DNA from: Thermobispora bispora DSM 43833
Lineage (GTDB): Bacteria; Actinomycetota; Actinomycetes; Streptosporangiales; Streptosporangiaceae
Reading direction: 5' to 3'
Length of the DNA stretch: 64,000 bases
Assembly (NCBI RefSeq): GCF_000092645.1
Contig: NC_014165.1
Location: 62,001 to 126,000, forward strand
Each line of letters begins with the position of its first letter. Within the stretch, counting starts at the first letter, position 1. The position numbers and the translations under genes were made by a program. This document shows, in pieces, positions 33,029-46,290 of the stretch. A model generated the notes under the pieces. The model did not search any database and was not told the origin of the DNA. It saw only the letters and a program-made list of their open reading frames with translations.

Positions 33029-33117
33029 GGAGAGCTCGCCTAGTGGACGATGGCGGCGGTCTTGAAAACCGCTAGGCCGGGTGACCGGCCTCGTGGGTTC
33101 GAATCCCACGCTCTCCG
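33029..33117 (+). tRNA. tRNA-Ser (anticodon TGA)
   Basis: An 89-base cloverleaf with a seven-pair acceptor stem (ggagagc / gctctcc), an anticodon stem gcggt/accgc with anticodon TGA at 33063-33065, a long variable arm (gccgggtgaccggcc region) as in class II tRNAs, and a T arm containing GGTTCGAATCC. CCA is not encoded. The last 58 bases are also the left attachment repeat, so this functional tRNA is a hybrid of chromosomal 5' part and element-supplied 3' part. Confidence 0.96.
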
Positions 33118-33120
33118 CTC
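33060..33120 (+). repeat. attL, 61-bp attachment repeat
   Basis: Identical over all 61 bases to 45931-45991, offset 12,871. It begins in the anticodon loop (tcttgaaaac) and ends three bases past the tRNA. Crossover in or near the anticodon stem-loop is usual for tRNA-targeting tyrosine integrases. Confidence 0.93.
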
Positions 33121-33130
33121 TGCTCAACGA

Positions 33131-33180
33131 AACGGCGTCTGACCAGCGGTTTCGCACCGGTCAGGCGCCGTTGATCGTTT
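33131..33180 (+). terminator. Terminator of tRNA-Ser, inside the element's left end
   Basis: A 14-bp stem with one G-U pair (33131-33144 / 33159-33172) is followed by gatcgttt. A near-identical copy lies at the same distance after attR (46002-46051), so the tRNA keeps a terminator whether or not the element is integrated. Confidence 0.7.
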
Positions 33181-33333
33181 CCGGGGCATGCAGCCATGCG
33201 CCACCGTGGGCACCCCTCGGCCGCTGGTCGCGGGATATTCGCGGGATGGATCATGGCGTGTATCCCCAGGTCACCCGGCGGAAACGAACAGGGTCCCGGG
33301 ATGACCGGGACCCTGTTCCGATATCGCATGCCC

Positions 33334-34704
33334 TCACATTCTCAGGGCGTCCTCGATCCTTTGGCTGGCGATCTCTGCGCCGCCGTCGATGCACTTGGCG
33401 TAGACCCTCAAAAGCACGTCCACCCCGTGCCCCGCGCGTTCGGCTACCTCTGGAGCTGATACGCCGGCGTTGAGCCATAGGGAGACGGCTGCGTGCCGTA
33501 GGTCGTAGGGCCGTGCCGCGAGCGGGGAGGCGACCTGTTCCGGGGGCAGGGCCAAGATCCTGGCCTGTTGCCATGCCTCGCAATAGGTCGCGATGGAGAC
33601 CACACCGCCCCGCGATGTGCGGAACAGGCGCCCGTCATCATGGACGCCGAACTCGTCGACGTGCTCGCGCAAGATTGCGACAAGCTCGGGAGGGATGGGG
33701 ACAGTGCGGCCTTCACCCTGGGCGCGGTGTTTCAGACCGCGGTCATCGTGCGCTTCTCCGGTGTCAGTCCATCGCCTGTTGGCCTGTGGCTTGGACCTGG
33801 AGATGATCAATCGACCCCAGCCTGACTCTGGCAGATGGCAGTCCTGTAGGCGGAGGCCGAGTGCTTCGGCGGGCCGAAGGCCGGCGAAGTAAAGGCAGGC
33901 GAAAAAGGCCCGCAGATGCCGGCCACGGTCCGGACGTCCTACGTACGTCACGGCGGTGAGCAGTTCCCGGGCTTGCGTGGGGTTGACGACGACCCGCCGG
34001 TCGACGACCTCGCGGACTTTCGGAGGTCTCCACGCCTTCACCTTGTCCAGCGGGTTAGAGGGCAGCTCTTCTAGATCCACGGCGTACTGAAGGACGTTGT
34101 AGAAGACCGCCCGTTTGCGGGCGATCGTGGTCGGTGCCGCGGGTGTGCCATCGAGCCGGAGCGTCAGCGCGTCGAGGCCAAGCCGTACATTCCGCACCTT
34201 CCCCAGCTCGGCCAGGGGCAGCGAGTGCCGTTCAAGCCAAGCCACTGCAGCCGCTACGTCTGCGGGACGGGGCAGGTGCCGCGCTACCGGGGGTAGGACA
34301 TATTGCCGCAGCGCTTTCCTCAAGAGCGCGAGATCCGGCTTGCCGGGAGCGTCCTCGTCGACGAGTGCAGGTGTCACCGTTGCGAGAGCATCGGTGAGGC
34401 TGTCCCGGGTCTTCGCTGCGGCGTGGGGCCATTTCATGTCAACGTAGGCCACGACGAAGGAGAACCAGGTCACGGCCTGCTTGACCTTGACCATCGAGAC
34501 CGGGAGCCCTGTTTCCACGTCGAAGGGCTCGCCCCGCTTGGCCGCCTGCCGCAGTTCCGAGAGGAAGTGCTCGGCCAGCGCCTTCGTCCGCCGTGATCGA
34601 GACCGTTGACGCCCGGCCACTGTCCAGCGGACCTCGTATGAGGGCGTCTTGCTCGACTTGTTCCGGCGGATTCCCCAGAACTTGACATCGGTAGAGGTGT
34701 TCAT
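33334..34704 (-). CDS. int: Tyrosine recombinase (AICE integrase)
   Basis: A 456-residue integrase adjacent to attL. A SAM-like core-binding domain is at about 90-200 and the catalytic domain at about 240-450. Catalytic residues are visible: Arg in AGLRPAEALGL, LRH in YDLRHAAVSLW, His in RAGHGVDV, and the Tyr nucleophile in LLRVYAKC. It should recombine attP with the tRNA-Ser gene. ATG 34704 overlaps the xis stop (ATGA), so the two are co-translated. The longer frame to 35127 lies inside rep and is discarded. Confidence 0.95.
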   Translation of the reverse strand: MNTSTDVKFWGIRRNKSSKTPSYEVRWTVAGRQRSRSRRTKALAEHFLSELRQAAKRGEPFDVETGLPVSMVKVKQAVTWFSFVVAYVDMKWPHAAAKTRDSLTDALATVTPALVDEDAPGKPDLALLRKALRQYVLPPVARHLPRPADVAAAVAWLERHSLPLAELGKVRNVRLGLDALTLRLDGTPAAPTTIARKRAVFYNVLQYAVDLEELPSNPLDKVKAWRPPKVREVVDRRVVVNPTQARELLTAVTYVGRPDRGRHLRAFFACLYFAGLRPAEALGLRLQDCHLPESGWGRLIISRSKPQANRRWTDTGEAHDDRGLKHRAQGEGRTVPIPPELVAILREHVDEFGVHDDGRLFRTSRGGVVSIATYCEAWQQARILALPPEQVASPLAARPYDLRHAAVSLWLNAGVSAPEVAERAGHGVDVLLRVYAKCIDGGAEIASQRIEDALRM

Positions 34705-34892
34705 GCCACCTCGCGGAGGGACTCCAGCCAGGCCATCAGGTCGCTGCGCCAGATGCGGAGTTCGCCGTTGGGGAGTTTGATGCACCGGGGTGCGCAGCCG
34801 AGCTCGCGCCAGCGGTAGAAGGTGCGGCGGGAGACGCCGCCGAGCTCGGCGAGTACCTCGGGCACGGTCAGGAGCCGGTCGTTGCGCGTCAT
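34701..34892 (-). CDS. xis: Excisionase / MerR-like HTH protein
   Basis: A 63-residue helix-turn-helix protein of the HTH_17 type (LTVPEVLAELGGVSRRTFYRWRELG), followed by a beta-wing reading CIKLPNGELRIWRSDL. In AICEs such proteins are the recombination directionality factors that drive excision with Int. Both ends overlap the neighbouring genes by four bases (rep upstream, int downstream). Confidence 0.9.
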   Translation of the reverse strand: MTRNDRLLTVPEVLAELGGVSRRTFYRWRELGCAPRCIKLPNGELRIWRSDLMAWLESLREVA

Positions 34893-36274
34893 CGGGCATC
34901 ACCCCCCACCGCTGACGGCATAGGCACGCCCGTGATGGCGGCGGCGAGGAGGGCGTCCCCGGCGGAGAGGCCTTGGCCGGCGTACTGCCAGTGCGCGATG
35001 ACGAGGACGGTGTCCTCGTCGAAGAGCGGGAGCCGTCCCACGCTGATCTGCTCGTCGCGCTTGTGCGCGGCCCGCGCCTCGCGGAGGGCACCGAGGGTGG
35101 TGGAGTAGCGGCGGGACTTGGTGGCAAAGTGGCCGCGGAATCCGAGCATGTGCGCCCACTGGGTCAGCCGGAGGCAGGCCAGCTCATCGAGGGCGCCGAG
35201 GCGGAGGCATTCGGCGATCAGCCGCCGGGCGTGGTCGCGGACCGGCAGGGCGGCCAAATCGGCGGTGGGCAGGATGCGCTGGTCGAGGGTGCCGACGCAT
35301 TCGGCGGCCTTGGTGGCGTACTTGGTGGCGTACTTGGCGATGTAACCGGCGACGGCTTGTGCGGTCAGCTCGCCGTCCATGCTGATCGGGCGGATGTCGA
35401 GCTGGTCGCCCCACCGCAGAACCCGTTCGGGCTGGCCGTCGAGGGCGGGGATGGTGGCGGTGACGGCGGAGGCGGCGTGCCGTACGGCCTCACCGAGCAG
35501 GTCCAGGGTGGCCCACGCGGGGGGTGGTGAGGTGGGGCCGTCCGGACCGTCGAGGCGGATGACGGCGTGGAAGTGGACGACGCCGCGCCGCTGGTATTCG
35601 GCGACCTTGGCGAAGGACACCATGAGCTGGTCGCGCATGGCGCGCGGGGCAAGGCCGCCGAGCTTTGCCAGGTGCCGGCGGAGGGCCAGGGTGAAGCGCC
35701 GCCACAGTTCGGGGGCGAGGGCGTTGAACAGCACTGAGCCGGTGTAGTCGTAGCAGTCCGGGCACAGCGGCTCACCAAGGCGCGCATCGTCGGAGCCGTG
35801 GCGGGCGGTGCAGGACATGACGCGCCCGTGCGGGCAGGTGGCGGCGTCGCGGCGCGGGTGGCAGGGCAGGACGGTGCCGTTGTTCTCCCGGCGGGTGTGC
35901 ACCGGCCCGAAGGACGGGGCGGTGAGGGTGACGAACAGGCACGGGTGCGACGTGACCGTTTCGGGGACGCCTTTGCCGCCGATGAGTCCGGCGCGGATTA
36001 GGTGGTAGGTGTCGGCGCGGTAGGTCTCGGCGCAGGAAGGGCAGCGGGAGGCGCGCCGGGTCTTGCACGGGACGCGCAGCACGCCGTCGGGTTCGGTGCT
36101 GGTGCTGTAGCGGTGGAGGAGCCGGCCGGTGGCGCGGTCGTAGTGCTCGACGGTGCCGCGCAGGTGGACCGGCCGGCGGCAGCCGCCGGTACGGCGGATT
36201 TGGGCGGCCCACCGGGCGTATTGCGGGTCGTGGAGCCGGGTGATGAGTCCGGCCAGGGCGTGGGCGGTTGGCAT
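34889..36274 (-). CDS. Replication initiator, RepSA-like rolling-circle type
   Basis: A 461-residue HUH-type initiator as in pSAM2 RepSA. Visible motifs are FVTLTAPSFG (motif 1), VVHFHAVIRLDG (the HUH metal-binding motif 2) and AGYIAKYATKYATK (motif 3 with the probable nicking Tyr). Paired Cys near residues 77-80 (CPSC) and 165-172 (CPDC) may bind zinc. It would nick a double-strand origin so the excised circle can replicate. ATG 36274 has a GAAGGGA upstream. A perfect 14-bp inverted repeat lies just upstream. Confidence 0.88.
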   Translation of the reverse strand: MPTAHALAGLITRLHDPQYARWAAQIRRTGGCRRPVHLRGTVEHYDRATGRLLHRYSTSTEPDGVLRVPCKTRRASRCPSCAETYRADTYHLIRAGLIGGKGVPETVTSHPCLFVTLTAPSFGPVHTRRENNGTVLPCHPRRDAATCPHGRVMSCTARHGSDDARLGEPLCPDCYDYTGSVLFNALAPELWRRFTLALRRHLAKLGGLAPRAMRDQLMVSFAKVAEYQRRGVVHFHAVIRLDGPDGPTSPPPAWATLDLLGEAVRHAASAVTATIPALDGQPERVLRWGDQLDIRPISMDGELTAQAVAGYIAKYATKYATKAAECVGTLDQRILPTADLAALPVRDHARRLIAECLRLGALDELACLRLTQWAHMLGFRGHFATKSRRYSTTLGALREARAAHKRDEQISVGRLPLFDEDTVLVIAHWQYAGQGLSAGDALLAAAITGVPMPSAVGGDAR

Positions 36275-36317
36275 GATGGGGTGGTCCCTTCCGTGCTGTT
36301 GGGTGCGGTGTGGGATG

Positions 36318-36366
36318 GCCCCCGACGTGACGGACGTCTTGGCGGATGTGTGGTCACGTCGGGGGC
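36318..36366. repeat. Perfect 14-bp inverted repeat upstream of rep
   Basis: gcccccgacgtgac (36318-36331) and its exact complement (36353-36366) flank a 21-base loop. It lies between the small zinc-ribbon gene and rep on the operon transcript. It could be an attenuating hairpin or part of the double-strand origin; it has no T-tract. Confidence 0.6.
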
Positions 36367-36390
36367 GCTGCGATCACCAGGGGTCGGCAG

Positions 36391-36507
36391 TCAGCAGAGG
36401 CCGAGGCCCTGGCAGTGCGGGCAGGTGTCGCCGTAGCTATCGAGGCCAGTGCCGCCGCAGTGGCAGCACTGCCACCGCCGAGGCGGGATCAGGGCGAGTT
36501 CGGTCAT
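36391..36507 (-). CDS. Very small zinc-ribbon protein
   Basis: A 38-residue protein with two CxxC knuckles of the DnaJ zinc-finger type (CCHCGGTG and CPHCQGLG), so it very likely binds zinc. The ATG overlaps the stop of the upstream gene (ATGA), which supports it as a real, coupled cistron. Such tiny CxxCxGxG proteins occur in AICE transfer operons. Function unknown. Confidence 0.7.
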   Translation of the reverse strand: MTELALIPPRRWQCCHCGGTGLDSYGDTCPHCQGLGLC

Positions 36508-36680
36508 CGGGCCCACCTGCATTCGGCGCGCTGGGGGGCGGTGTCGACGATGACGCGCCAGGTGTGCGGGCGTCGGCGGATCGGGGTGATGGGCGAGATT
36601 CGGCCGACCGGCAGGATCGTGCGGATCTTGCTGAGGGTGTAGGCGATTTCGGCGTTGGTTCCTTCGATGTGGATGCGCAT
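36504..36680 (-). CDS. Small AICE protein of unknown function
   Basis: A 58-residue basic protein (MRIHIEGTNAEIAYTL). ATG 36680 is chosen because AAAGGAG lies eight bases upstream; the frame extends to 36698 without a ribosome site. It is coupled at its end to the zinc-ribbon gene. No family is recognised. Confidence 0.68.
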   Translation of the reverse strand: MRIHIEGTNAEIAYTLSKIRTILPVGRISPITPIRRRPHTWRVIVDTAPQRAECRWAR

Positions 36681-36694
36681 GGTCGTGACTCCTT

Positions 36695-37426
36695 TCATGG
36701 GGCGTCGGGTGTGCTGCGCAGGGTGCGCAGCAGGTCGGAGGCGAGCTGGTTGGACACGCCCAGGTGGGCGCGGAGCTGGTCGCGGGTGATGGGTTTGCCG
36801 TGCTTGGCGCGGTGTTCGTCGGCCACGCGCCGGGCGAAGTCGACCAGCGCCGGGGACGGTCCCCGAGTGCCGTCCTTGCCGTGCTGACCGGCCCGGACGA
36901 GCGCCGGGGCCGGGGACGATGTGCCACCGGTCGGGGACGACGCCTCACTGGTCGGGGACGAGGCCGGGACGGTCGCGGACCCGGGGTCGGTGACCGGTGA
37001 GGACGCCGGGACGGCGGAGGGGACGAGGCGTGGACCAGAGGCGCGGCGCTCCAGCATGGAGACCGCGATGAGGAAGGCCCCGGCGGGGGTTCCGGCGGTC
37101 AGCCGGCCCCACAGGGTCGGTTCGGCCTGGTGGAGGTTTGCGGCCAGGGACAGGGCGATGCCGGCGACGAGGACGATGGTCGGCCAGGAGACCAGGCCGC
37201 GCTGGGTGCGTCCGGTTTTCTTGTCCCGCTGGCGTTCCCGGGCGGCCATGACGCAGGTCAGGTCGACGCAGACGGCCACGGCCCAGGACATCCACCCGGT
37301 TTGGCCGCTTTCTGCGGCGGTGTCGCGGATGTGGGTGAAGCTGCCTGCTCCGGCGATGGCGGCCAGGACGACGACCGGGCCGGTGTCGGCCAGCCGTACG
37401 GCCAGGCGGGACAAGATGCTGTTCAC
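36695..37426 (-). CDS. DUF2637-type membrane protein of the AICE
   Basis: A 243-residue protein. Four predicted transmembrane helices lie in the first ~130 residues (VVVLAAIAGAGSFTHI, WMSWAVAVCVDLTCVM, WPTIVLVAGIALSLAANL, PAGAFLIAVSMLE), followed by a Ser/Pro/Thr-rich linker and a C-terminal helical HTH-like segment (ITRDQLRAHLGVSNQLASDLLRTL). This matches the DUF2637 proteins of Streptomyces plasmids and AICEs, thought to aid intermycelial spread. GTG 37426 has AAAGGAGGG upstream. Confidence 0.8.
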   Translation of the reverse strand: MNSILSRLAVRLADTGPVVVLAAIAGAGSFTHIRDTAAESGQTGWMSWAVAVCVDLTCVMAARERQRDKKTGRTQRGLVSWPTIVLVAGIALSLAANLHQAEPTLWGRLTAGTPAGAFLIAVSMLERRASGPRLVPSAVPASSPVTDPGSATVPASSPTSEASSPTGGTSSPAPALVRAGQHGKDGTRGPSPALVDFARRVADEHRAKHGKPITRDQLRAHLGVSNQLASDLLRTLRSTPDAP

Positions 37427-37458
37427 GTAGGGTTTCCCTCCTTTCTGCGGTGGTGTGG

Positions 37459-38841
37459 TCAGGCGGCGATCTGGGGGTTTTCGCTCGCGGGGGCAAGGTC
37501 GTGGCCGAGGCCGGAGGTGGCGACCTGCGCCCATGAGGGGGTGAGGTGGGCGTAGGCGGTGGCGACCTGTTCGGCCACTGCGGTGGAGACGTAGCCGGAG
37601 CGGGCGCGGTACCAGCGGCCGTCGCTGCCGGTCACGACCGCGACGCCGGGCAGCTCGGGCGGGATGGACCGGGCGGCGACCAGGGCGTCGGGGTCGAGGT
37701 CGCCGAGGGTCATCACCGCGGTTTCCGGATCGTTGACGCGGTGGCAGACCCTGCCGCCGATCTGGGCGCGCAGCGCGGTCACGCCGGGGCCGAGGTCGGA
37801 GCCGATTCGCTGGCCGGACAGCACCAGGTGTATGCCGAAGGCGCGGCCGAGCTGGGCGATCCGCAGCAGGGCGGTAGCCGTACGGGTGACCTGGTCTTTT
37901 TCCGCCTTGTCGGCGGTCAGGAACAGTTCGGCGATCTCGTCGACCATCACCACGACCGGGATCGGCCGTGAGGCGTCCGGCAGTTGCCAGATGTCGCGGA
38001 CCGCAAGCCAGCGGCAGGCCAGCATCCGGGCGCCCATGACCCCGATCAGGTCGGCCAGAAGATCCAGGCACTCCCCGCGTGTGGTGGCGAGCGCGGTCAA
38101 CCTCGGCGTGTACGGCGACAGCTCCACCCCGCCTTTGAGGTCGAAGCCGACCAGGGCGACCGGTTGCGGGGCCAGGCCGACGATGAGCGCGTTGATCAGG
38201 TTCGACTTGCCCGATTGGGTCGCGCCCGCGTTCATCCAGTGCGGGATGAGCCGGAAATCCATCCGCCACGGGGCGCCGGTCTCCAGCACCCCCACCACCG
38301 GGCGGAGCAGGTCCTCGGCCCGCCACCCGTCCGGAGGCTCAACCGGAGCGACGGCGGGGATGACGTGTGCCAAAGGGTCGCGGTTGATCCCCTGCAGGGT
38401 GACCCGGCCGGGCCGGGAGCCGACCACGCGCACCGCCTCGATGCGCCAGGCGTGCGCGAGCCGGTCGCATACCTTGGCGTAGTCCTCGGGGATCTGCCCG
38501 TCGAGCAGGTGGAAGGTGACGCGGAAGCCGTGCCGCGTGGGCCGGGGCAGGCCCATCCACGGCTTGGTGTCGACGGCGACCCGTTGAAGGCGCCGCTTGA
38601 CGCGGACTACCCCGGTCGAGGAGACCAGGCCCGGCACGGTGGTGAACCACCAGCGGTTGCGCTTTTTGGTCAGACCGCAGCCGGAGGCCACGTGCCGCCA
38701 GGACCAGCGCAGCCATACTGCTTTGCACGGGAAGCCGAACAGGTACCAGTACGAGACCGGCGCCCACTGCCGCCAGCAGACCAGCACGAGCACCAAGGCA
38801 ACGGCGAGCAGAACGGGCCGAGGCACAGGCGGCAAGGGCAT
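37459..38841 (-). CDS. FtsK/SpoIIIE-type DNA translocase (TraB/TraSA-like)
   Basis: A 460-residue conjugation ATPase. Two N-terminal transmembrane helices (VLLAVALVLVLVCW, SYWYLFGFPC) precede the motor domain, with Walker A GATQSGKSN near residue 205 and Walker B VVVMVDEIAEL near 305. In AICEs one such hexameric protein moves double-stranded DNA between mycelia, with no relaxase or type IV machinery. The ATG overlaps the stop of the upstream gene. The long extension of the frame to 39228 is antisense noise. Confidence 0.92.
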   Translation of the reverse strand: MPLPPVPRPVLLAVALVLVLVCWRQWAPVSYWYLFGFPCKAVWLRWSWRHVASGCGLTKKRNRWWFTTVPGLVSSTGVVRVKRRLQRVAVDTKPWMGLPRPTRHGFRVTFHLLDGQIPEDYAKVCDRLAHAWRIEAVRVVGSRPGRVTLQGINRDPLAHVIPAVAPVEPPDGWRAEDLLRPVVGVLETGAPWRMDFRLIPHWMNAGATQSGKSNLINALIVGLAPQPVALVGFDLKGGVELSPYTPRLTALATTRGECLDLLADLIGVMGARMLACRWLAVRDIWQLPDASRPIPVVVMVDEIAELFLTADKAEKDQVTRTATALLRIAQLGRAFGIHLVLSGQRIGSDLGPGVTALRAQIGGRVCHRVNDPETAVMTLGDLDPDALVAARSIPPELPGVAVVTGSDGRWYRARSGYVSTAVAEQVATAYAHLTPSWAQVATSGLGHDLAPASENPQIAA

Positions 38842-39176
38842 CAGCCCACCCCCGCTCCGGCCGACCCCGCCGGAATGATGGACCGCGCTCGGTAGGCGAT
38901 GCCCCACCTGCCGGCCTGCTCCCAGATGGAGGCGGCCAGACCGACCGGGACCACCTCGTCCCCCGGAGCGATCTGCGGTTCGGGGGTGACGTAGACCTTG
39001 ACCAGCTCCATTCGGCCGGCTTCGTCCTCGACCAGGAGCGTGACCTCGTAGATCGGGTTGCCGTCGCGGTCCCGCTTGATCTCGCCGGTCTCCTTGCTTA
39101 CCAGGCGGGGCCGGGGTGCCTTCGCGCACGAGATGCGCAGCATGGAGACATCGACGGGGATGGGAATGGTGCGCAT
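38841..39176 (-). CDS. AICE protein of unknown function, first gene of the transfer operon
   Basis: A 111-residue protein with a mixed alpha/beta pattern and a stretch LVSKETGEIKRDRDGNPIYEV typical of beta-hairpin SCO-type AICE proteins that precede traB. ATG 39176 has AAAGGAG six bases upstream. Its stop overlaps the translocase start. A regulatory role similar to replication activators is possible but not shown. Confidence 0.72.
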   Translation of the reverse strand: MRTIPIPVDVSMLRISCAKAPRPRLVSKETGEIKRDRDGNPIYEVTLLVEDEAGRMELVKVYVTPEPQIAPGDEVVPVGLAASIWEQAGRWGIAYRARSIIPAGSAGAGVG

Positions 39177-39201
39177 GATCGACTCCTTTCTGACGCGTAC
39201 C

Positions 39202-39261
39202 ACTTGGCATCCATGGTGTTCTTAGCATTCCAAGTTGTCAAGGACTGCTAGGGCTACTTGG
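39202..39261. promoter_or_regulatory. Candidate operator of the KorSA-like repressor (three ACTTGG sites)
   Basis: ACTTGG occurs at 39202-39207 and 39256-39261 and in reverse (CCAAGT) at 39230-39235, within the 138-bp gap between the divergent transfer operon and the GntR gene. Such an arrangement suits autorepression plus control of the operon, as KorSA does in pSAM2. Confidence 0.5.
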
Positions 39262-39314
39262 TTGGCGCGAGGGCCGAGGTGTGCTGAACTTGTATGCGGA
39301 GAGGGAGACAAAGG

Positions 39315-39695
39315 ATGATCGAGAAGACCGGTCGGCCTGCTTACATGCAGATCGCCGACGAGCTACGCCGGCAGATCCGCAGCGGGTCGCTGCCGCCGGG
39401 TACGGCTCTGCCCTCGATCACCCAGCTCTGCCGCCGCTACGACGTCTCGGCGAGCGTCGTCAAAGCCGCGATCAGCGTGCTCCGCACCGAAGGGCTGATC
39501 GTCGGACAGCAAGGAAAAGGCGTGTTCGTCCGCGACCCAGGAAGCGCGGCCGGGCGGGAGGTCGCCGAGACTTCGGAGATCATGGAGCAGCTCGTCGAGA
39601 TCCGCGCCACGCTCCGGGATCTGAGGGAGCGGGTGGCTGATCTTGAGTCCGCAGTCTTCCAAGAGCCGAAGCGATCTGGTGAACGCGGCAAGTGA
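39315..39695 (+). CDS. GntR-family regulator, KorSA-like
   Basis: A 126-residue protein. Residues 1-75 form a GntR winged helix (YMQIADELRRQIRSGSLPPG, then LCRRYDVSASVVKAAISVL), and the tail is a coiled coil (EIMEQLVEIRATLRDLRERV) instead of a ligand-binding domain. The divergent position at the head of the transfer operon is that of KorSA, the pSAM2 repressor that keeps the element integrated. ATG 39315 has GAGGGA eight bases upstream. Confidence 0.85.
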   Translation: MIEKTGRPAYMQIADELRRQIRSGSLPPGTALPSITQLCRRYDVSASVVKAAISVLRTEGLIVGQQGKGVFVRDPGSAAGREVAETSEIMEQLVEIRATLRDLRERVADLESAVFQEPKRSGERGK

Positions 39696-39768
39696 TCTCT
39701 TCGAGTTCGGCGCGGATCGACTGCAGGTCAGCGATGATCCGCCGGGTGATTTCGTCGTTTATGTTCAC
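39580..39768 (-). CDS. Possible small coiled-coil protein antisense to the GntR gene end
   Basis: A 62-residue frame from GTG 39768 with a perfect AAGGAG four bases upstream. The N-terminal half is amphipathic (INDEITRRIIADLQSIRAEL). The 3' 116 bases overlap the GntR gene tail to tail. The ribosome site and composition favour a real gene; the antisense part and lack of a known family argue for caution. Confidence 0.42.
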   Translation of the reverse strand: MNINDEITRRIIADLQSIRAELEEITCRVHQIASALGRLRTQDQPPAPSDPGAWRGSRRAAP

Positions 39769-39960
39769 GACGCTCCTTGATGAGGCGATTCGGTGCTTCC
39801 TCACTTCGGGATACCGCTAGTTCACCGTGATCCGGGCCTTTTCTGTATCACGCACCCTTAACTAAGCTTCTTCACACCGTCTCATCATCGGTTTACACGA
39901 ACGTTTTCACACGCACGACCCCGAGCCCCGCCCTGAAAAGGGCAAACGCGAAAGGATGCG

Positions 39961-40998
39961 ATGAAGTCGACCCAGCGGCCCGGCTGGATACCCTCCCGGC
40001 TTCGGGAACACCGTGAAGCGCACGGACTGACCCTTGAGGCTGCGGGTGATCTGCTTCGGGAGACGGCGCGCCGTCATGGCTTGGCCGTGCCGGCAGCCAA
40101 CTTCCAAACCCTGTGGGGTCACGAGAACGGCTCGATATACCCCGGACCGCATTACCGGCGCGCCTACTGCCTGATGTATCGCGCCACCGAGCCCCAGCTT
40201 GGATTTCGGCCGCCCTTACCCGGCGAAACGGAAAAGGCGGAAATTATGATTTCCGATCTGCCCGCTCCCAGCGATCCCGCGGCCGATGAGGCCGCCGCTA
40301 AGGTCATCGAGGAGGCGGTGGCCAAGGCATCCGTGGGCGGCATCCAGCCCGACAACCCACAGCAAGTCGCCTTGCGCAACCGCATCGTCGACGCCTGGCG
40401 CAGGCGGCACGGCGGCGGCAGCCCGAGGCCGATCCTGACCCTGGTCGGCGGCTACGCCGGATCGGGCAAGACGGAGTTCTCCCGCTTCCTGTCCGACATC
40501 ACCGGATGGGCGTTCCTGGACAAGGACTCCCTCACCCGGTCGATGACGGAGCGCCTGCTCGTCTCGCTCGGTGGCGATCCTAACGACCGGCACAGTGAGC
40601 TGTACCTGACGGAGGTCCGCCCGCTGGAGTACCGGTTCCTGATGGAAGCCGCATGGGACAACCTCAACGCGGGCACCTCGGCCATCTTGTCCGCCCCGTT
40701 CATCGCCGAGCTCAACGATGAGGCGTGGTTCAAGCGGTTGGAGAACCGGTGCGCGGCCAAGGGCATCGACCTCGCCGCGATCTGGGTTCGCTGCGATGCC
40801 GAGTCCATGCGCGAGTACATCGAGTTCCGAGGGGCCGCCCGAGACGCCTGGAAGCTCGCCAACTGGGAGACATACCTTGCGGGGCTCGATCTCGAGGAAA
40901 GCCCGCCCACGGTGCACATCACCGTGGACAACCGGCTGGGTTCGGCGATCACCCTTGCCGACCAGACTCGACAGACGCTCAAGCGGATTCTGTCGTGA
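39961..40998 (+). CDS. HTH-P-loop kinase fusion (XRE-like plus AAA_33/zeta-like)
   Basis: A 345-residue protein. Residues about 10-75 resemble an XRE-type helix-turn-helix (LREHREAHGLTLEAAGDLL, NFQTLWGHENG). After a linker, a P-loop kinase domain of the AAA_33/zeta-toxin class starts near 155: Walker A GGYAGSGKTEFSR, then LDKDSLTRSMTERLL, and a lid-like Arg-rich segment (EYIEFRGAARDAW). It may phosphorylate a small molecule or RNA end. ATG 39961 has AAAGGA. It is translationally coupled to the next P-loop gene (GTGA). Similar pairs occur as AICE accessory genes. Confidence 0.75.
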   Translation: MKSTQRPGWIPSRLREHREAHGLTLEAAGDLLRETARRHGLAVPAANFQTLWGHENGSIYPGPHYRRAYCLMYRATEPQLGFRPPLPGETEKAEIMISDLPAPSDPAADEAAAKVIEEAVAKASVGGIQPDNPQQVALRNRIVDAWRRRHGGGSPRPILTLVGGYAGSGKTEFSRFLSDITGWAFLDKDSLTRSMTERLLVSLGGDPNDRHSELYLTEVRPLEYRFLMEAAWDNLNAGTSAILSAPFIAELNDEAWFKRLENRCAAKGIDLAAIWVRCDAESMREYIEFRGAARDAWKLANWETYLAGLDLEESPPTVHITVDNRLGSAITLADQTRQTLKRILS

Positions 40999-41621
40999 GC
41001 GCCCCGCCCGTCGGTGTTGGTTTGTACGGCCCGCCCTGCAGCGGCAAGAGCACCATCACCACCGCCCTGCACCAGCTCGACCCCCGATTCCGGCTGCTGC
41101 GCAAACTCAAGGTCGGCACCGGCCGAGCCGACGAGTACGACATGGTCACCGCCGAGCAGCTCGACCAGCTGCGCCGCGCCGGCCGCCTTCTGGTCCAGAC
41201 CTACCGCTACGGGAACATCTACGCCGTCGACCGGCGCCAGATCGAGGACATGAGCTCCGCCGGGCACGCGCCGGTCGTGCATATGGGGAACATCGCCGAC
41301 TTGCGTCGTCTGGTCGGCCGTACCCCGGACGCATGGCTGCGCGTGCTGCTGTGGGTGCCCCGCGAGGTGACCGAGCGGCGATCCAAAGACCGCGGTGACA
41401 CCGACACTGCCGAGCGCCTGAGGGCATGGGATGAGACCCTTGCCGACCTGACCGCCAACACCGACGAGGCGTTCTTTCACCTGCGGCTGTGCACCGATCG
41501 CCTGGACGCCGAGGCCGCCGCGAAGGAGATCATCACCGCCTTCCACGCGCTCACGAAGGCGGCTGAGCCTCGTACAGCGGGAGGCCGCCAGGAAGACGCG
41601 CCGGCACGCCGCAAGGAATGA
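40995..41621 (+). CDS. P-loop nucleotide kinase-like protein
   Basis: A 208-residue protein beginning with a Walker A (LYGPPCSGKSTIT) right at the N-terminus, then a guanylate-kinase-like middle (DEYDMVTAEQLDQLRRAGRLL, YRYGNIYAVDRRQIE, HMGNIADLRRL) and an Arg-rich lid (VTERRSKDRGD). The C-terminal 20 residues are disordered. The GTG start overlaps the stop of the HTH-kinase gene, so the two act together or in sequence. Substrate unknown. Confidence 0.72.
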   Translation: MSAPPVGVGLYGPPCSGKSTITTALHQLDPRFRLLRKLKVGTGRADEYDMVTAEQLDQLRRAGRLLVQTYRYGNIYAVDRRQIEDMSSAGHAPVVHMGNIADLRRLVGRTPDAWLRVLLWVPREVTERRSKDRGDTDTAERLRAWDETLADLTANTDEAFFHLRLCTDRLDAEAAAKEIITAFHALTKAAEPRTAGGRQEDAPARRKE

Positions 41622-41778
41622 GATCCGTACGCCACCAGGTGCCGCACCCGACACACCGGGCACCACTCGGAATGTCCTCACCGGGCGGAGACCAGCAGAC
41701 CTCATGATGAGCGCACCTCGCCACGGCCGCCCCTCGAGCACTGACGGCGCGCCGGATGCTGGGGAAGCCCTTCCCTGG

Positions 41779-42075
41779 TCATCGTGCTTGCCCTAGAAGG
41801 ATCTTCATCCACAGCTGTTCTGCCTCGGCGGCGCGAGTCCATTCGCTCTCGTGCACCAGCACCTCGTCTGAGCGGTAGAAACGCCGGATGAACCGCAAGC
41901 CGCCAGCCTGGCACAGCTCATAGACGATCGGCTGACAGTCGCAGGTGTGACCGCGGACCCGGATGCGGTCGGCACGCGGCCGGCTCTCGCGCCACTTCAC
42001 CCGCGTGTAGCCCTTCTGCGGCGCCGCCGGATGAAGGCCGGGACAGCTTTCAAGAAGCTCCGCAAGGTCATCCAC
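41779..42075 (-). CDS. Hypothetical protein of the AICE
   Basis: A 98-residue protein with a conserved-looking CDCQPIVYELC segment and basic/aromatic patches (RFIRRFYRSDEVLVHESEW). GTG 42075 starts four bases after the upstream gene's stop, with GAGGTGA upstream. It is second of a two-gene leftward unit divergent from the second GntR gene. No family recognised. Confidence 0.62.
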   Translation of the reverse strand: MDDLAELLESCPGLHPAAPQKGYTRVKWRESRPRADRIRVRGHTCDCQPIVYELCQAGGLRFIRRFYRSDEVLVHESEWTRAAEAEQLWMKILLGQAR

Positions 42076-42079
42076 CCGG

Positions 42080-42328
42080 TCACCTCGGCCGGCCCTTCGC
42101 CCCCTGCTCAGCGGCCAGCCGCGCGGCGATCTTCGCCTGTCTCTCCAGCTCGACCACCAGGGCGGATGCGTCGTCACCGCACACCGTCTGTTCCAGCCCG
42201 GCGTTCAACTGCTCGTAGCTCAGCGACGTGCCGCGTCGCGTGGCGTACCAAGCCCCTGGACCGGCTTCACTCGCGCCGCGCCAGATCACCCAGCCCGGGT
42301 ACTTGGCTGCTATCTGCTCAAGATCCAT
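42080..42328 (-). CDS. Hypothetical protein of the AICE
   Basis: An 82-residue protein with Trp/Tyr-rich N-half (YPGWVIWRGASEAGPGAWYATRR) and a helical C-half. This type is common next to GntR/HTH regulators in actinobacterial genomes, where it probably accompanies the regulator; function unknown. ATG 42328, GGGTAGCTGA just upstream. The intergenic operator at 42415-42430 is shared with the GntR gene. Confidence 0.68.
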   Translation of the reverse strand: MDLEQIAAKYPGWVIWRGASEAGPGAWYATRRGTSLSYEQLNAGLEQTVCGDDASALVVELERQAKIAARLAAEQGAKGRPR

Positions 42329-42386
42329 TCAGCTACCCGATCCATCCCATCAAGCAGACGCCATACCTGAGGTCAATGTAGCTAAA

Positions 42387-42430
42387 TACGTACATACGCG
42401 CAATCGGATGCACCTATGCTGCTACGTAGC
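42387..42430. promoter_or_regulatory. Promoter and palindromic operator of the second GntR gene
   Basis: TATGCT (42415-42420) is a plausible -10. It abuts the perfect 10-bp palindrome gctacgtagc (42421-42430), ten bases before the ATG. A second TACGTA lies at 42387-42392. No Shine-Dalgarno precedes the ATG, so the mRNA may be nearly leaderless and the repressor would sit on its own start site. Confidence 0.5.
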
Positions 42431-42439
42431 TTCGGCGCT

Positions 42440-42859
42440 ATGACGATCGATCCCAGCGCCGACCGCCCGGTCTACAAGCAGCTCGCCGACCTGATCCGGG
42501 CGCGCATCCAGTCGGGGGAGTACCGCCCCGGTCAGCGCCTCCCAGCCGAGAACGATTTCGTCGCCGAGTACGGCATTTCGCGTGACTCGGTGCGCCGTGC
42601 CATGGCCGTACTGAGGGGAGAGGGATTGATCGTGACGGAACTGCGCGGCTCACGCGTCCGCGAGGTCGGGGAGGCCGTCACCGTCTCGATTTCACCGGGT
42701 ACTCAGGTCGCCGCCCGCATGCCCACCGAGCCCGAGCGCAAGCAACTCGGGATTGCCGAAGGCGTCCCCATCCTGATCATCACCGAGCCGGACGGTGAGA
42801 CCCGCAAGCTCCCTGCAGACCGCACCATCATCGAGGCGAGCAAAGAACAGCAGGGTTAA
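42440..42859 (+). CDS. GntR-family regulator (second in the element)
   Basis: A 139-residue protein with an N-terminal GntR winged helix (VYKQLADLIRARIQSGEYRPGQ, FVAEYGISRDSVRRAMAVL). A short beta-rich C-terminal part (IAEGVPILIITEPDGETRKLP) reads like a truncated UTRA-type domain. It is divergent from a pair of hypothetical genes. ATG 42440 is used; the frame extends eight codons upstream. It probably regulates the divergent pair and itself. Confidence 0.82.
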   Translation: MTIDPSADRPVYKQLADLIRARIQSGEYRPGQRLPAENDFVAEYGISRDSVRRAMAVLRGEGLIVTELRGSRVREVGEAVTVSISPGTQVAARMPTEPERKQLGIAEGVPILIITEPDGETRKLPADRTIIEASKEQQG

Positions 42860-43338
42860 GACGGCGGCAGGAGCCCTCGAAAGCCTCCAGCGTCACCCAC
42901 CCGGTACCACAAGGAGCGCGCGAAACCGCATTCGTCTACGTCACTCCGCCAAGCCGAGCCTAGCCGCAGCGCGGAGCCTGCCGGATGAGAACTTTCTCTA
43001 CGTCGTCAAGCCGCCGCTTCGCGGCGGGAAAAGGACCCGCGGCACCCGAGAGAACGGGGAAGAGCTCAGCGCGGTCCGATGCGCCACTCAAACCCACGGT
43101 CGGCCAACTGCACGCGCCGAGCTGAGCCACCCTTGGGCCGCGAGCCCCGCCTTCGGCGGGCGTGCGGCCTCTCCGGGCCGAACCCGCCTCGGCGGGCGCG
43201 CCTCGTCCACAGGCGCGCGCAGCATTGTCGGCCTGGACATTGGGGCTCCGCCCCAAACCCCGGGGCCTCCGGCTCCGGGAAGCCCTCAAGATCATGAAGA
43301 AGCGTTCAGATTGTGCCCATGGGTGTGGGGGAGAGGCC

Positions 43339-43530
43339 CTGATCTTCCCGCCCGCCATCGACCCGGGCAAAGCCCAGCAGACCGGCTTCTACGGGTCAAG
43401 CCCGGCTGTGCAGGCAGGGCAACCGGCGCGCGTGGAAGGTCACGGGGGCAGGTACACGCGAAGCCGGGCTTGACCCTTCGTCACCGGCCTGCTGCCCCGG
43501 GGGCGGGTCGACGGCAGACGGGAAGATCAG
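43339..43530. repeat. Large imperfect inverted repeat, 69-bp arms
   Basis: Arms 43339-43407 and 43462-43530 are complementary without gaps at about 50 of 69 positions, with perfect blocks at the outer end (ctgatcttcccg), in the middle (cagcag, ccgg) and at the inner end (gggtcaagcccggct). The loop is 54 bases. Not coding. Confidence 0.72.
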
Positions 43531-43593
43531 AGATAGGTGCCGCACCTGGCGCGCGCATGCCGGGACCACTTGATGGCGTTCGCTTGGATCAGA

Positions 43594-43663
43594 GGATCAT
43601 CCCCGCGTGCGTGGGGAGCACGAGTAGCTTTTCGGCTGTATAGGCGTCGATAGGGATCATCCC
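43594..43663. CRISPR. Solitary type I-E-like CRISPR repeat-spacer unit (remnant)
   Basis: 43594-43621 has the hallmarks of an actinobacterial type I-E repeat: ggatcat, then a CCCCGCG/CGTGGGG hairpin, then agcac. After exactly 32 bases a second repeat begins (ggatcatccc, 43654-43663) and then diverges. No cas gene is in the window. One repeat and a half is weak evidence, but the sequence, hairpin and spacing all fit. Confidence 0.5.
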
Positions 43664-44206
43664 GGTAAATTGTGCGCAATGGTGGGTTGGTGGCGACCAG
43701 CCAGTCCGGGTTGGAGTGGACGTCGGCGTCTGTCTGCAGGTGCTGCAGGCATGTTGGTGAAGATGGCGTCGCCGGTGCGGAGCGCTTATCGGCCCTTGGG
43801 CGAGGTCGGCGCGTCGAAATTTTTGGCCACGTTGTACAACTAGATTCAACGTACGGACAACGGCCTGCTCCTCAGCCTCCCTGCCCACGGCACGCCAACC
43901 ACGCAATCGTCGGTCATCCAGCTACGGGCGGCCGAAGACAAGGCGCAGCAACAGCCTACCTCGCCAGCCTCGAACGCGTCTGGGCGATCGCACGGCCGCT
44001 CGGTGATTCGAACGGCTCCGCGCACTGCTCATGATCGAAAGCAACTCTTCTTCCCGTCGTCAAGGGCGGCGCTCCGGGCCTCCACGCGGCCAATCGTCCG
44101 CTTGGCGGTCGGGTATACGGCCTGGGACCGGGGCCCTGCCGCCGACGGCTCCGGGTCGCGCTGGACGTACGCACCATCAGTGACCCTAAGGGAGGTTGCG
44201 GAACCC

Positions 44207-44236
44207 TTGCCGTTGCATTCATGCCGCCTTTACGAT
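44207..44236 (+). promoter_or_regulatory. Candidate promoter of the cargo gene
   Basis: TTGCCG (44207-44212) and TACGAT (44231-44236) are separated by 18 bases, about 85 bases before the start codon of the AT-rich gene. By inspection only. Confidence 0.35.
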
Positions 44237-44322
44237 CTGCCATGCTGCGGCTGATCACCATGAGTGGTCAGGGGCGATTCGAGAGTTCATAAGGAACAGG
44301 GCCACGGTGAAAGGAGGTTGCG

Positions 44323-45603
44323 TTGGAAGCTCTAGGAGAGAATCGATCAATCTCGTTAGAGACCGACGAAATATCTACAATTTCCCAAGCCCTAAATCTG
44401 AAGTATGTGGCTACCGTTGATAATTTCCTGACCTTCGAGTCGATGGATACCGGAGTATTTCGTCGGCGAGAAGTCGCAATTCCTTTGAGTGTAGCATCTG
44501 CGATTCTTCAGGCCCTCAAGCGTGGAGCTCAGAGGATGGAGGACTGTGAGGGGTGGATTGATCCGCAAAGGGGATTCGCTGAATTTGAAATCCGGCAAGA
44601 GGGAATTGGTATGTTCAGGCGGGGGAATTTTGAAAAATTAAAGTTCGAGACTCGGCCCTGTATACATAGCCACGAGAATGATCCTCCATCAGTATACGAC
44701 GAAGTCCGCAACATAATTTATCCAGTTATTAGGGTTACATCGAGCGATGGGACTACTTGTATTGAGATATCACCCAACTCTCCTCTTTGCACTCCGCTCC
44801 TACCTTTAGATGATGATGGCCGCCCAGCTCGGGTTCAGACTCTGAAGATCTTTCTTGCAGGACCGACTGAGAAGCTGGAGCTGCTACGAAGGTCTCGTGA
44901 GCTAGCGAATTCTTTTCTATTTGAGTTAAATGTGCGCCATGGGTCACACTATTCTCTACGTTCTAGGGTAGTGGGCCCCTCACGTCCTCGACGTGCTGTA
45001 AGGACTCATGACACAGTCAGATTTCCGAGAACGCGAGTCCCTAACAATGTTGCTACATTATTCTCTATTCCCAGTGAATTCGGAATACGTAACAATTATA
45101 CATTAGCTTATTTGTCCTACTATCAGATCTTAGAGTATTATCTTCCTATTGTGCATAGGCGGGATACTATAGAAAGAGTACGCAGAATTCTACGGTCGTT
45201 AGATTTTGATGAAGAAGAAGATTTCTCTGTATTGCAGATAGTGACCTCCGTTGAGCGTTCGCATGGTGCAAGTGAGATTGATCAATTGCGAACGCTTATA
45301 GAAAAATGTGTACCTGAAAGTAAGTTGAAGGAATTTTTTTCGCTTGACCATAACGGCCATTTTGGTAAGCGTGGGCCGATATCTGGGGTTCCTGCTATCT
45401 ATCCCACGAGCGGGGAGTCTTTAGCTTCTCAGGTGGCAAAGCGGATCTACAAGTTGCGCAATAGAATTGTGCACGCGAAAGATGATGCCCGCTATTCTGA
45501 ATCCACGGTACTATTGCCGTTCAGTCATGAGGCAATGCAACTTTATCCCGACATAGAACTCCTGCGACTCCTGGCGATTGAGGTAATTGTAAGTAACCAA
45601 TAG
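44323..45603 (+). CDS. AT-rich cargo gene with C-terminal HEPN-type motif (possible ApeA-like antiviral protein)
   Basis: A 426-residue cytoplasmic protein. TTG 44323 is set by a perfect AAAGGAGG five bases upstream. Residues about 1-230 look beta-rich. The C-terminal part (about 240-420) is helical and contains R379-N-R-I-V-H384 in YKLRNRIVHAKDD, the R-N-x3-H form of the HEPN RNase motif, as in ApeA-like HEPN proteins. Base composition is strikingly AT-rich (some lines near 35% GC), with many codons unused by neighbours, a sign of recent transfer. It lies at the far end of the element from int, the usual cargo position. HEPN nuclease function is inference. Confidence 0.68.
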   Translation: MEALGENRSISLETDEISTISQALNLKYVATVDNFLTFESMDTGVFRRREVAIPLSVASAILQALKRGAQRMEDCEGWIDPQRGFAEFEIRQEGIGMFRRGNFEKLKFETRPCIHSHENDPPSVYDEVRNIIYPVIRVTSSDGTTCIEISPNSPLCTPLLPLDDDGRPARVQTLKIFLAGPTEKLELLRRSRELANSFLFELNVRHGSHYSLRSRVVGPSRPRRAVRTHDTVRFPRTRVPNNVATLFSIPSEFGIRNNYTLAYLSYYQILEYYLPIVHRRDTIERVRRILRSLDFDEEEDFSVLQIVTSVERSHGASEIDQLRTLIEKCVPESKLKEFFSLDHNGHFGKRGPISGVPAIYPTSGESLASQVAKRIYKLRNRIVHAKDDARYSESTVLLPFSHEAMQLYPDIELLRLLAIEVIVSNQ

Positions 45604-46290
45604 CTGTCACTTGCTAGCTGGACAGCTGCCGCAGGTCAGTCATGGGAACGCATGCCTTCCCGCTTCGTGGATCGATCACGTTGGGACAGCGGTGGTGACA
45701 GCGAGCTCAGCGCAACTGGCACACTATGGCGACCGTCGTAGCGCTATGCATGATACGGACCACGTGGTGGCCGATGTGCTGGAGGCCATGGAGATCCTGC
45801 ACAACGGGATTGATCGTGGATTAGCGCGTTCCCCGCAGCGAGGGATATGTGCGGGATGATTTCTTATGCCAGCCCATCGCTTAGGGTTGAGCCGCAGATC
45901 AAGGCGGGGCGGATGGAGGGATCGTAGTGCTCTTGAAAACCGCTAGGCCGGGTGACCGGCCTCGTGGGTTCGAATCCCACGCTCTCCGCTCAGCCCGACG
46001 AAACGGCGTCTGACCTGCGGTTTCGCCCCGGTCAGGCGCCGTTGATCGTTTAGGGCGTGTGCAGCCGTAGGCCAGCATGGGCAATCATCGGCCGCTGGTC
46101 GCGGCATGATTCGCCTTTCAGGCGCGTCGGGCCATCTAGAGCCCGGTGCGAGGATCCATGGCGGTACAGAATTACGCGAGCCCTGAGTTCTGGCCCTAGA
46201 GAGCCGGAAAGCGCCCATCCGATTAGAGCTCGGTCGTTTTTTCGACGACGAGCGAGGGCTGCACTGTGGGCGCGATCCACTCCCCACCGT
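45604..46290. other. Right junction of the element and adjoining non-coding DNA
   Basis: Holds ~320 bases of unassigned DNA after the cargo gene, then attR, then ~115 bases similar to the element's left end, then ~180 bases without features. An 82-codon frame at 45611-45859 has no support. Confidence 0.5.
45931..45991 (+). repeat. attR, 61-bp attachment repeat
   Basis: Perfect copy of 33060-33120: the tRNA-Ser(UGA) 3' part from the anticodon loop on. The 5' tRNA half is absent, so this is not a functional tRNA. Immediately downstream (45992-46106) the sequence remains about 80% identical, ungapped, to 33121-33235, including the terminator hairpin. Confidence 0.93.

Follow-up and report, generated by a model that had tools for sequence, protein, structure and literature searches.

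An orphan type I-E CRISPR fragment in an integrative element of Thermobispora bispora is probably the relic of an array end

The integrative element and its repeat-spacer fragment

The window examined is a stretch of 64,000 nucleotides, positions 62001-126000 of the single contig (C1) that makes up the 4,189,976-bp genome of Thermobispora bispora; positions given without a prefix are those of the window. Identical 60-bp segments of a tRNA-Ser 3' end were found at 33059-33118 and 45931-45990. Between them Pfam matches placed genes for a tyrosine integrase, RepSA, an FtsK/SpoIIIE (FtsK/TraB) protein and two GntR proteins. Judged by this gene content and by the tRNA repeats, the region 33059-45990 is a predicted pSAM2-type AICE of about 12.9 kb, which bears out an earlier note on this DNA that had placed the CRISPR-like feature inside a mobile element. 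An open reading frame at 39961-40998 carries an AAA_33 P-loop domain and matches zeta toxin weakly. Near the right end of the AICE, a 426-aa open reading frame (44323-45603) matches the Pfam families MauJ and AbiJ_NTD5 below threshold and is possibly a defence gene.

The orphan CRISPR fragment lies inside the AICE, 2.3 kb from its right end. At 43594-43621 (- strand) is a full type I-E repeat, GGATCATCCCCGCGTGCGTGGGGAGCAC, exactly as the earlier note had described it, with 27/28 identity to the repeat of the genome's arrays. No other site in the window matched with up to 3 mismatches and none appeared in 100 shuffled sequences; about 4e-7 matches as close as this would be expected by chance. 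The arrays themselves define the unit. A conserved extra G stands before GGATCATCC in 213 of the 232 repeat copies, hence each array unit consists of 29 nt of repeat and 32 nt of spacer, and the intervals counted by a 28-nt repeat are 33 in 207/229 cases and 32 in 5/229. The orphan retains 28 of the 29 nucleotides, its 29th base (43593) being A where the arrays have the conserved G. On this unit the intact spacer, CTATCGACGCCTATACAGCCGAAAAGCTACTC, occupies 31 nt at 43622-43652 (- strand), with the phase and length seen in the arrays. The 32-bp interval reported earlier is recovered by assigning the G at 43653 to the spacer but becomes 31 nt under the 29-nt repeat. The partial second repeat reported with it is present and in phase, and comprises 11 bases (43653-43663, - strand; GGGATCATCCC on the + strand) rather than ten. 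Repeat homology ends at 43663/43664, and the probability of meeting such a partial repeat by chance within ±2 bases of phase is about 1.5e-6. The locus holds one full repeat and 11 bases of another, as against the two or more full repeats looked for in a functional array. One crRNA unit is complete in the retained piece, with its 8-nt handle, spacer and downstream hairpin. A search of Rfam gave no match for the feature.

On the other side of the full repeat, 32 bases (43562-43593, - strand) separate it from the flanking DNA. They suggest a further spacer whose outer repeat has been lost; alternatively, and as tentatively, the first 8 nt, GGGACCAC, may be a repeat stub and the remainder a shortened spacer. 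The stub agrees with the repeat sequence GGGAGCAC at 7/8 positions, a score equalled by 2.7% of shuffled sequences. Neither reading is proven, and on either the array would once have been longer.

Host arrays and the shared trailer

The genome repeat, GGATCATCCCCGCGTGCGCGGGGAGCAC, is present in over 230 copies in three arrays, A1 (C1:1730563-1735406), A1b (C1:1744836-1748036) and A2 (C1:2739986-2745996, on the opposite strand). A degenerate two-repeat mini-array at C1:2739531-2739619, without a recognisable leader, lies just upstream of the A2 leader. Among 233 genome sites within 3 mismatches of the repeat, the orphan was the only one outside the arrays and the mini-array. A complete operon, cas3-cse1-cse2-cas7-cas5-cas6e-cas1-cas2, is found between A1 and A1b. 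The comparison with chromosomal type I-E arrays that had been proposed earlier therefore has a clear outcome, namely a 27/28 match to the repeat of three arrays beside a complete cas operon. The orphan's repeat variant is shared, one further change apart, with the outermost repeat of A1b. The published genome of strain R51T was reported to contain six CRISPR loci (PMC3035289).

Some features of these regions were recorded in passing. Near the leader-distal end of A2 (C1:2745570-2745753) one spacer occurs four times in tandem, and across the arrays a further seven spacers are duplicated. The 3' part of a tRNA-Pro(GGG) gene (C1:1722830-1722948) is duplicated 2.6 kb downstream (1725444-1725561) with 86% identity, some 5 kb from the A1 trailer, and this is likely to be an old integration scar. 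When an attachment duplicate was sought for the tRNA-Val next to A2, just a 74% match turned up, beyond the gene.

The DNA beyond the extra 32 bases carries the argument for descent. A stretch of 555 bp (42991-43545, + strand) is homologous, at 85-86% identity, to the leader-distal flanks of both A1 (C1:1729996-1730546) and A2 (C1:2746031-2746576), and is referred to here as the trailer. The orphan copy is 86.3% identical to that of A2 and 85.1% to that of A1, while the A1 and A2 copies are 82.3% identical to each other. The homology starts at nearly the same place in all three and stops near the array in each. The mini-array, too, is flanked by part of this trailer, and an alignment of the four junctions holds as far as the first repeat, with the orphan alone having the extra 32 bases at 43562-43593. 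Homology of this kind with two large arrays, and in part with the mini-array, argues for an array end by descent and against insertion of a spacer by off-target action of Cas1-Cas2. The orphan array is accordingly a probable paralogue of A1 and A2, the two large arrays that share its chromosome and trailer.

Within the trailer is an imperfect palindrome of 192 bp (43339-43530), 67% self-complementary and ending in CTGATCTTCCCG and CGGGAAGATCAG. It is a dispersed repeat with copies elsewhere in the T. bispora genome and across the Streptosporangiaceae, some of them near AICE genes or tRNAs, and it is possibly a site of AICE replication or transfer. The best copies examined in relatives had no CRISPR repeats in their surroundings, out to about 1.5 kb. 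Forty relatives lacked the left part of the trailer, which among 41 genomes was thus found in T. bispora only. These two results indicate that the palindrome is a dispersed repeat in its own right and that the full trailer is private to these array ends. That array trailers share DNA with AICE-associated repeats is the unusual part of the case. Next to the trailer, a segment of 129 bp (42808-42936) that includes the end of the second GntR gene is 97.7% identical to C1:2931321-2931448, a likeness that suggests recent exchange. The latter segment adjoins another copy of the palindrome, and a fragment of an integrase gene lies about 1 kb from it.

The missing leader and the spacer content

The leaders of A1, A1b and A2 are mutually alike and are positioned on the GTGCTCC side of the repeats. 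The crRNA strand at the orphan is therefore the - strand, and a leader would be expected after 43664. No counterpart of the A1, A1b or A2 leaders was found there. Instead, 170 bp past the break at 43663/43664, there begins a decayed gene remnant (43835-44070, + strand) related to the C-terminal end of a helix-turn-helix regulator gene, with about 70% identity to a relative's locus in which an open reading frame of 243 aa is intact. The segment 44060-44159 resembles a short dispersed element of roughly 100 bp that is repeated in many genomes of the family. No sigma-70-like promoter was detected in 43300-44330, which is a weak test as actinobacterial promoters may be missed by it.

The hairpin that had been noted in the repeat pairs well on the + strand only, by virtue of a G-U pair; on the crRNA strand there is an A-C mismatch, and the folding energy is -8.9 kcal/mol where the consensus has -14.3 kcal/mol. 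The base concerned also stands in the outermost repeat of A1b, and an array of Nocardia suismassiliense that looks intact has this variant as its consensus, with an exact match in 12 of its 14 repeats. The mismatch alone is thus no proof of lost function and processing need not be abolished.

A protospacer for the intact spacer was sought, as had been proposed earlier, in phages, plasmids, family genomes and viral contigs, and none was found there. Phages and plasmids gave partial matches at chance level only, the 297 family genomes gave the spacer's own locus only at up to 3 mismatches, and two exact 18-mers of the spacer had no match in viral contigs. The intact spacer has 50% G+C compared to an array mean of 69%, and under 1% of the 229 array spacers are as low. 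For the possible second spacer (43562-43593) the matches were weak and partial (E 0.3-3), and several fell in tail or tape-measure genes of actinophages. It had 18 bases in common with two viral contigs, which were rejected as targets since they agreed at only 24 and 20 of the 32 positions overall. In the other direction, none of the 229 array spacers had a full-length match in the window, the AICE included.

Origin of the fragment and known systems

Taken together, these results indicate that the 70 bases are the trailer end of a decayed type I-E array, probably inert, carried by the tRNA-Ser AICE, and we give this reading a probability of roughly 0.86. The observations behind it are the repeat identity, the phase, the homology of the trailer, the missing leader and the location in the AICE. 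A collapsed array was one of the origins offered in the earlier note, and it is the one that agrees with a host repeat in correct phase, a host-type array flank, a truncated second repeat and a lost leader. Read on the - strand, the order would be the last 11 bases of a repeat, the 31-nt spacer, the full repeat, the probable second spacer and the trailer. The leader and the promoter-proximal units would have been cut away at 43663/43664, as their absence there indicates, and we infer a deletion or an illegitimate join as the cause. Entry into the AICE may have been by recombination or duplication via the trailer, the palindrome of which also lies near AICE genes in relatives. With no leader and no second full repeat, neither spacer acquisition nor efficient transcription would be expected, hence the fragment is most likely inert. 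The hardly decayed state of the full repeat and the survival of all parts of one crRNA unit count against a relic, and the genus Thermobispora is represented by one genome. The relic of an array end accounts for every feature tested.

The alternatives were weighed against the same evidence. The fragment could be a working mini-array borne by the AICE, in which read-through on the - strand gives one crRNA for the host Cas6e and Cascade to use against a rival element. The host has complete type I-E cas genes, the handle, spacer and downstream hairpin are all there, and such mini-arrays are known in viruses (PMC11656645). There is, however, no leader, no sigma-70-like promoter was found in 43300-44330 by the weak test described above, a single full repeat leaves the 5' cut undefined, the hairpin is weakened, and no protospacer was found in phages, plasmids, the 297 family genomes or, by the two 18-mers, viral contigs. 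The suggestion of an element-carried array served by host Cas proteins gained no positive support from this and is improbable. A wider scenario, in which arrays and AICEs exchange DNA via the shared trailer and palindrome, AICEs have copied array ends and the orphan still makes a guide or decoy RNA, is to be viewed with similar scepticism. Less probable again is an RNA anti-CRISPR, in which a transcribed single repeat would titrate Cas6e or Cas7 and shield the AICE from the host type I-E system. Solitary repeat units of phages and plasmids work in this manner (PMC10651486), and one full repeat of the host subtype is indeed present on a mobile element. The orphan repeat, however, is not solitary, having a phased partial repeat 31 nt away and an array trailer attached, an adjoining sigma-70-like promoter was not found in 43300-44330 (actinobacterial promoters may be missed), and none of the 229 host spacers has a full match in the AICE.

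It is very unlikely that Cas1-Cas2 inserted a spacer off target, at some repeat-like sequence of the AICE. Such an event duplicates the target site in full and leaves the spacer between the two copies. The genome does encode Cas1 and Cas2 and the spacer is of normal length, but a duplicated full target site is lacking, and the 27/28 repeat identity together with about 550 bp in common with two array trailers points to descent from an array; the earlier proposal of such an integration is rejected. A chance likeness or a piece of an unrelated conserved element, for which the GC-rich window and a dispersed palindrome 63 bp away might speak, can be dismissed given the expectation of about 4e-7 matches, their absence from shuffled sequences, the fact that the best palindrome copies examined in relatives have no repeats within about 1.5 kb, and the existence of the genomic arrays.

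An array can, if the relic reading is correct, be reduced to about one unit and still be recognised by its trailer. Checking for a trailer would be a useful control before such pieces are named RNA anti-CRISPRs or element-borne mini-arrays. A trailer common to four array ends, with an AICE-associated palindrome within it, also offers a way to test for the spreading or breaking of CRISPR arrays by integrative elements.

No directly relevant publication emerged from a literature search for AICEs that carry CRISPR arrays. The surrounding element has the tyrosine integrase, RepSA, FtsK/TraB, GntR and tRNA attachment repeats of pSAM2-type actinomycete elements but differs in its CRISPR fragment, which was seen in none of the relatives' loci inspected. 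As in the viral CRISPR mini-arrays (PMC11656645), few host-type repeats are found on a mobile element, whereas here no leader or promoter was detected, the second repeat is truncated and no protospacer was found in a related element. The solitary repeat units, or Racrs (PMC10651486), likewise place a single full repeat of the host's subtype on a mobile element, while the orphan adjoins an in-phase partial repeat and an array trailer and a promoter for it was not found. Decayed or orphan type I-E arrays have the same host-array repeat, host-type spacer length, degenerate leader-distal end and lack of adjacent cas genes; the orphan differs from these in being cut down to a single full repeat and spacer with a partial repeat, in residing in an AICE and in having kept the trailer of its parent family.
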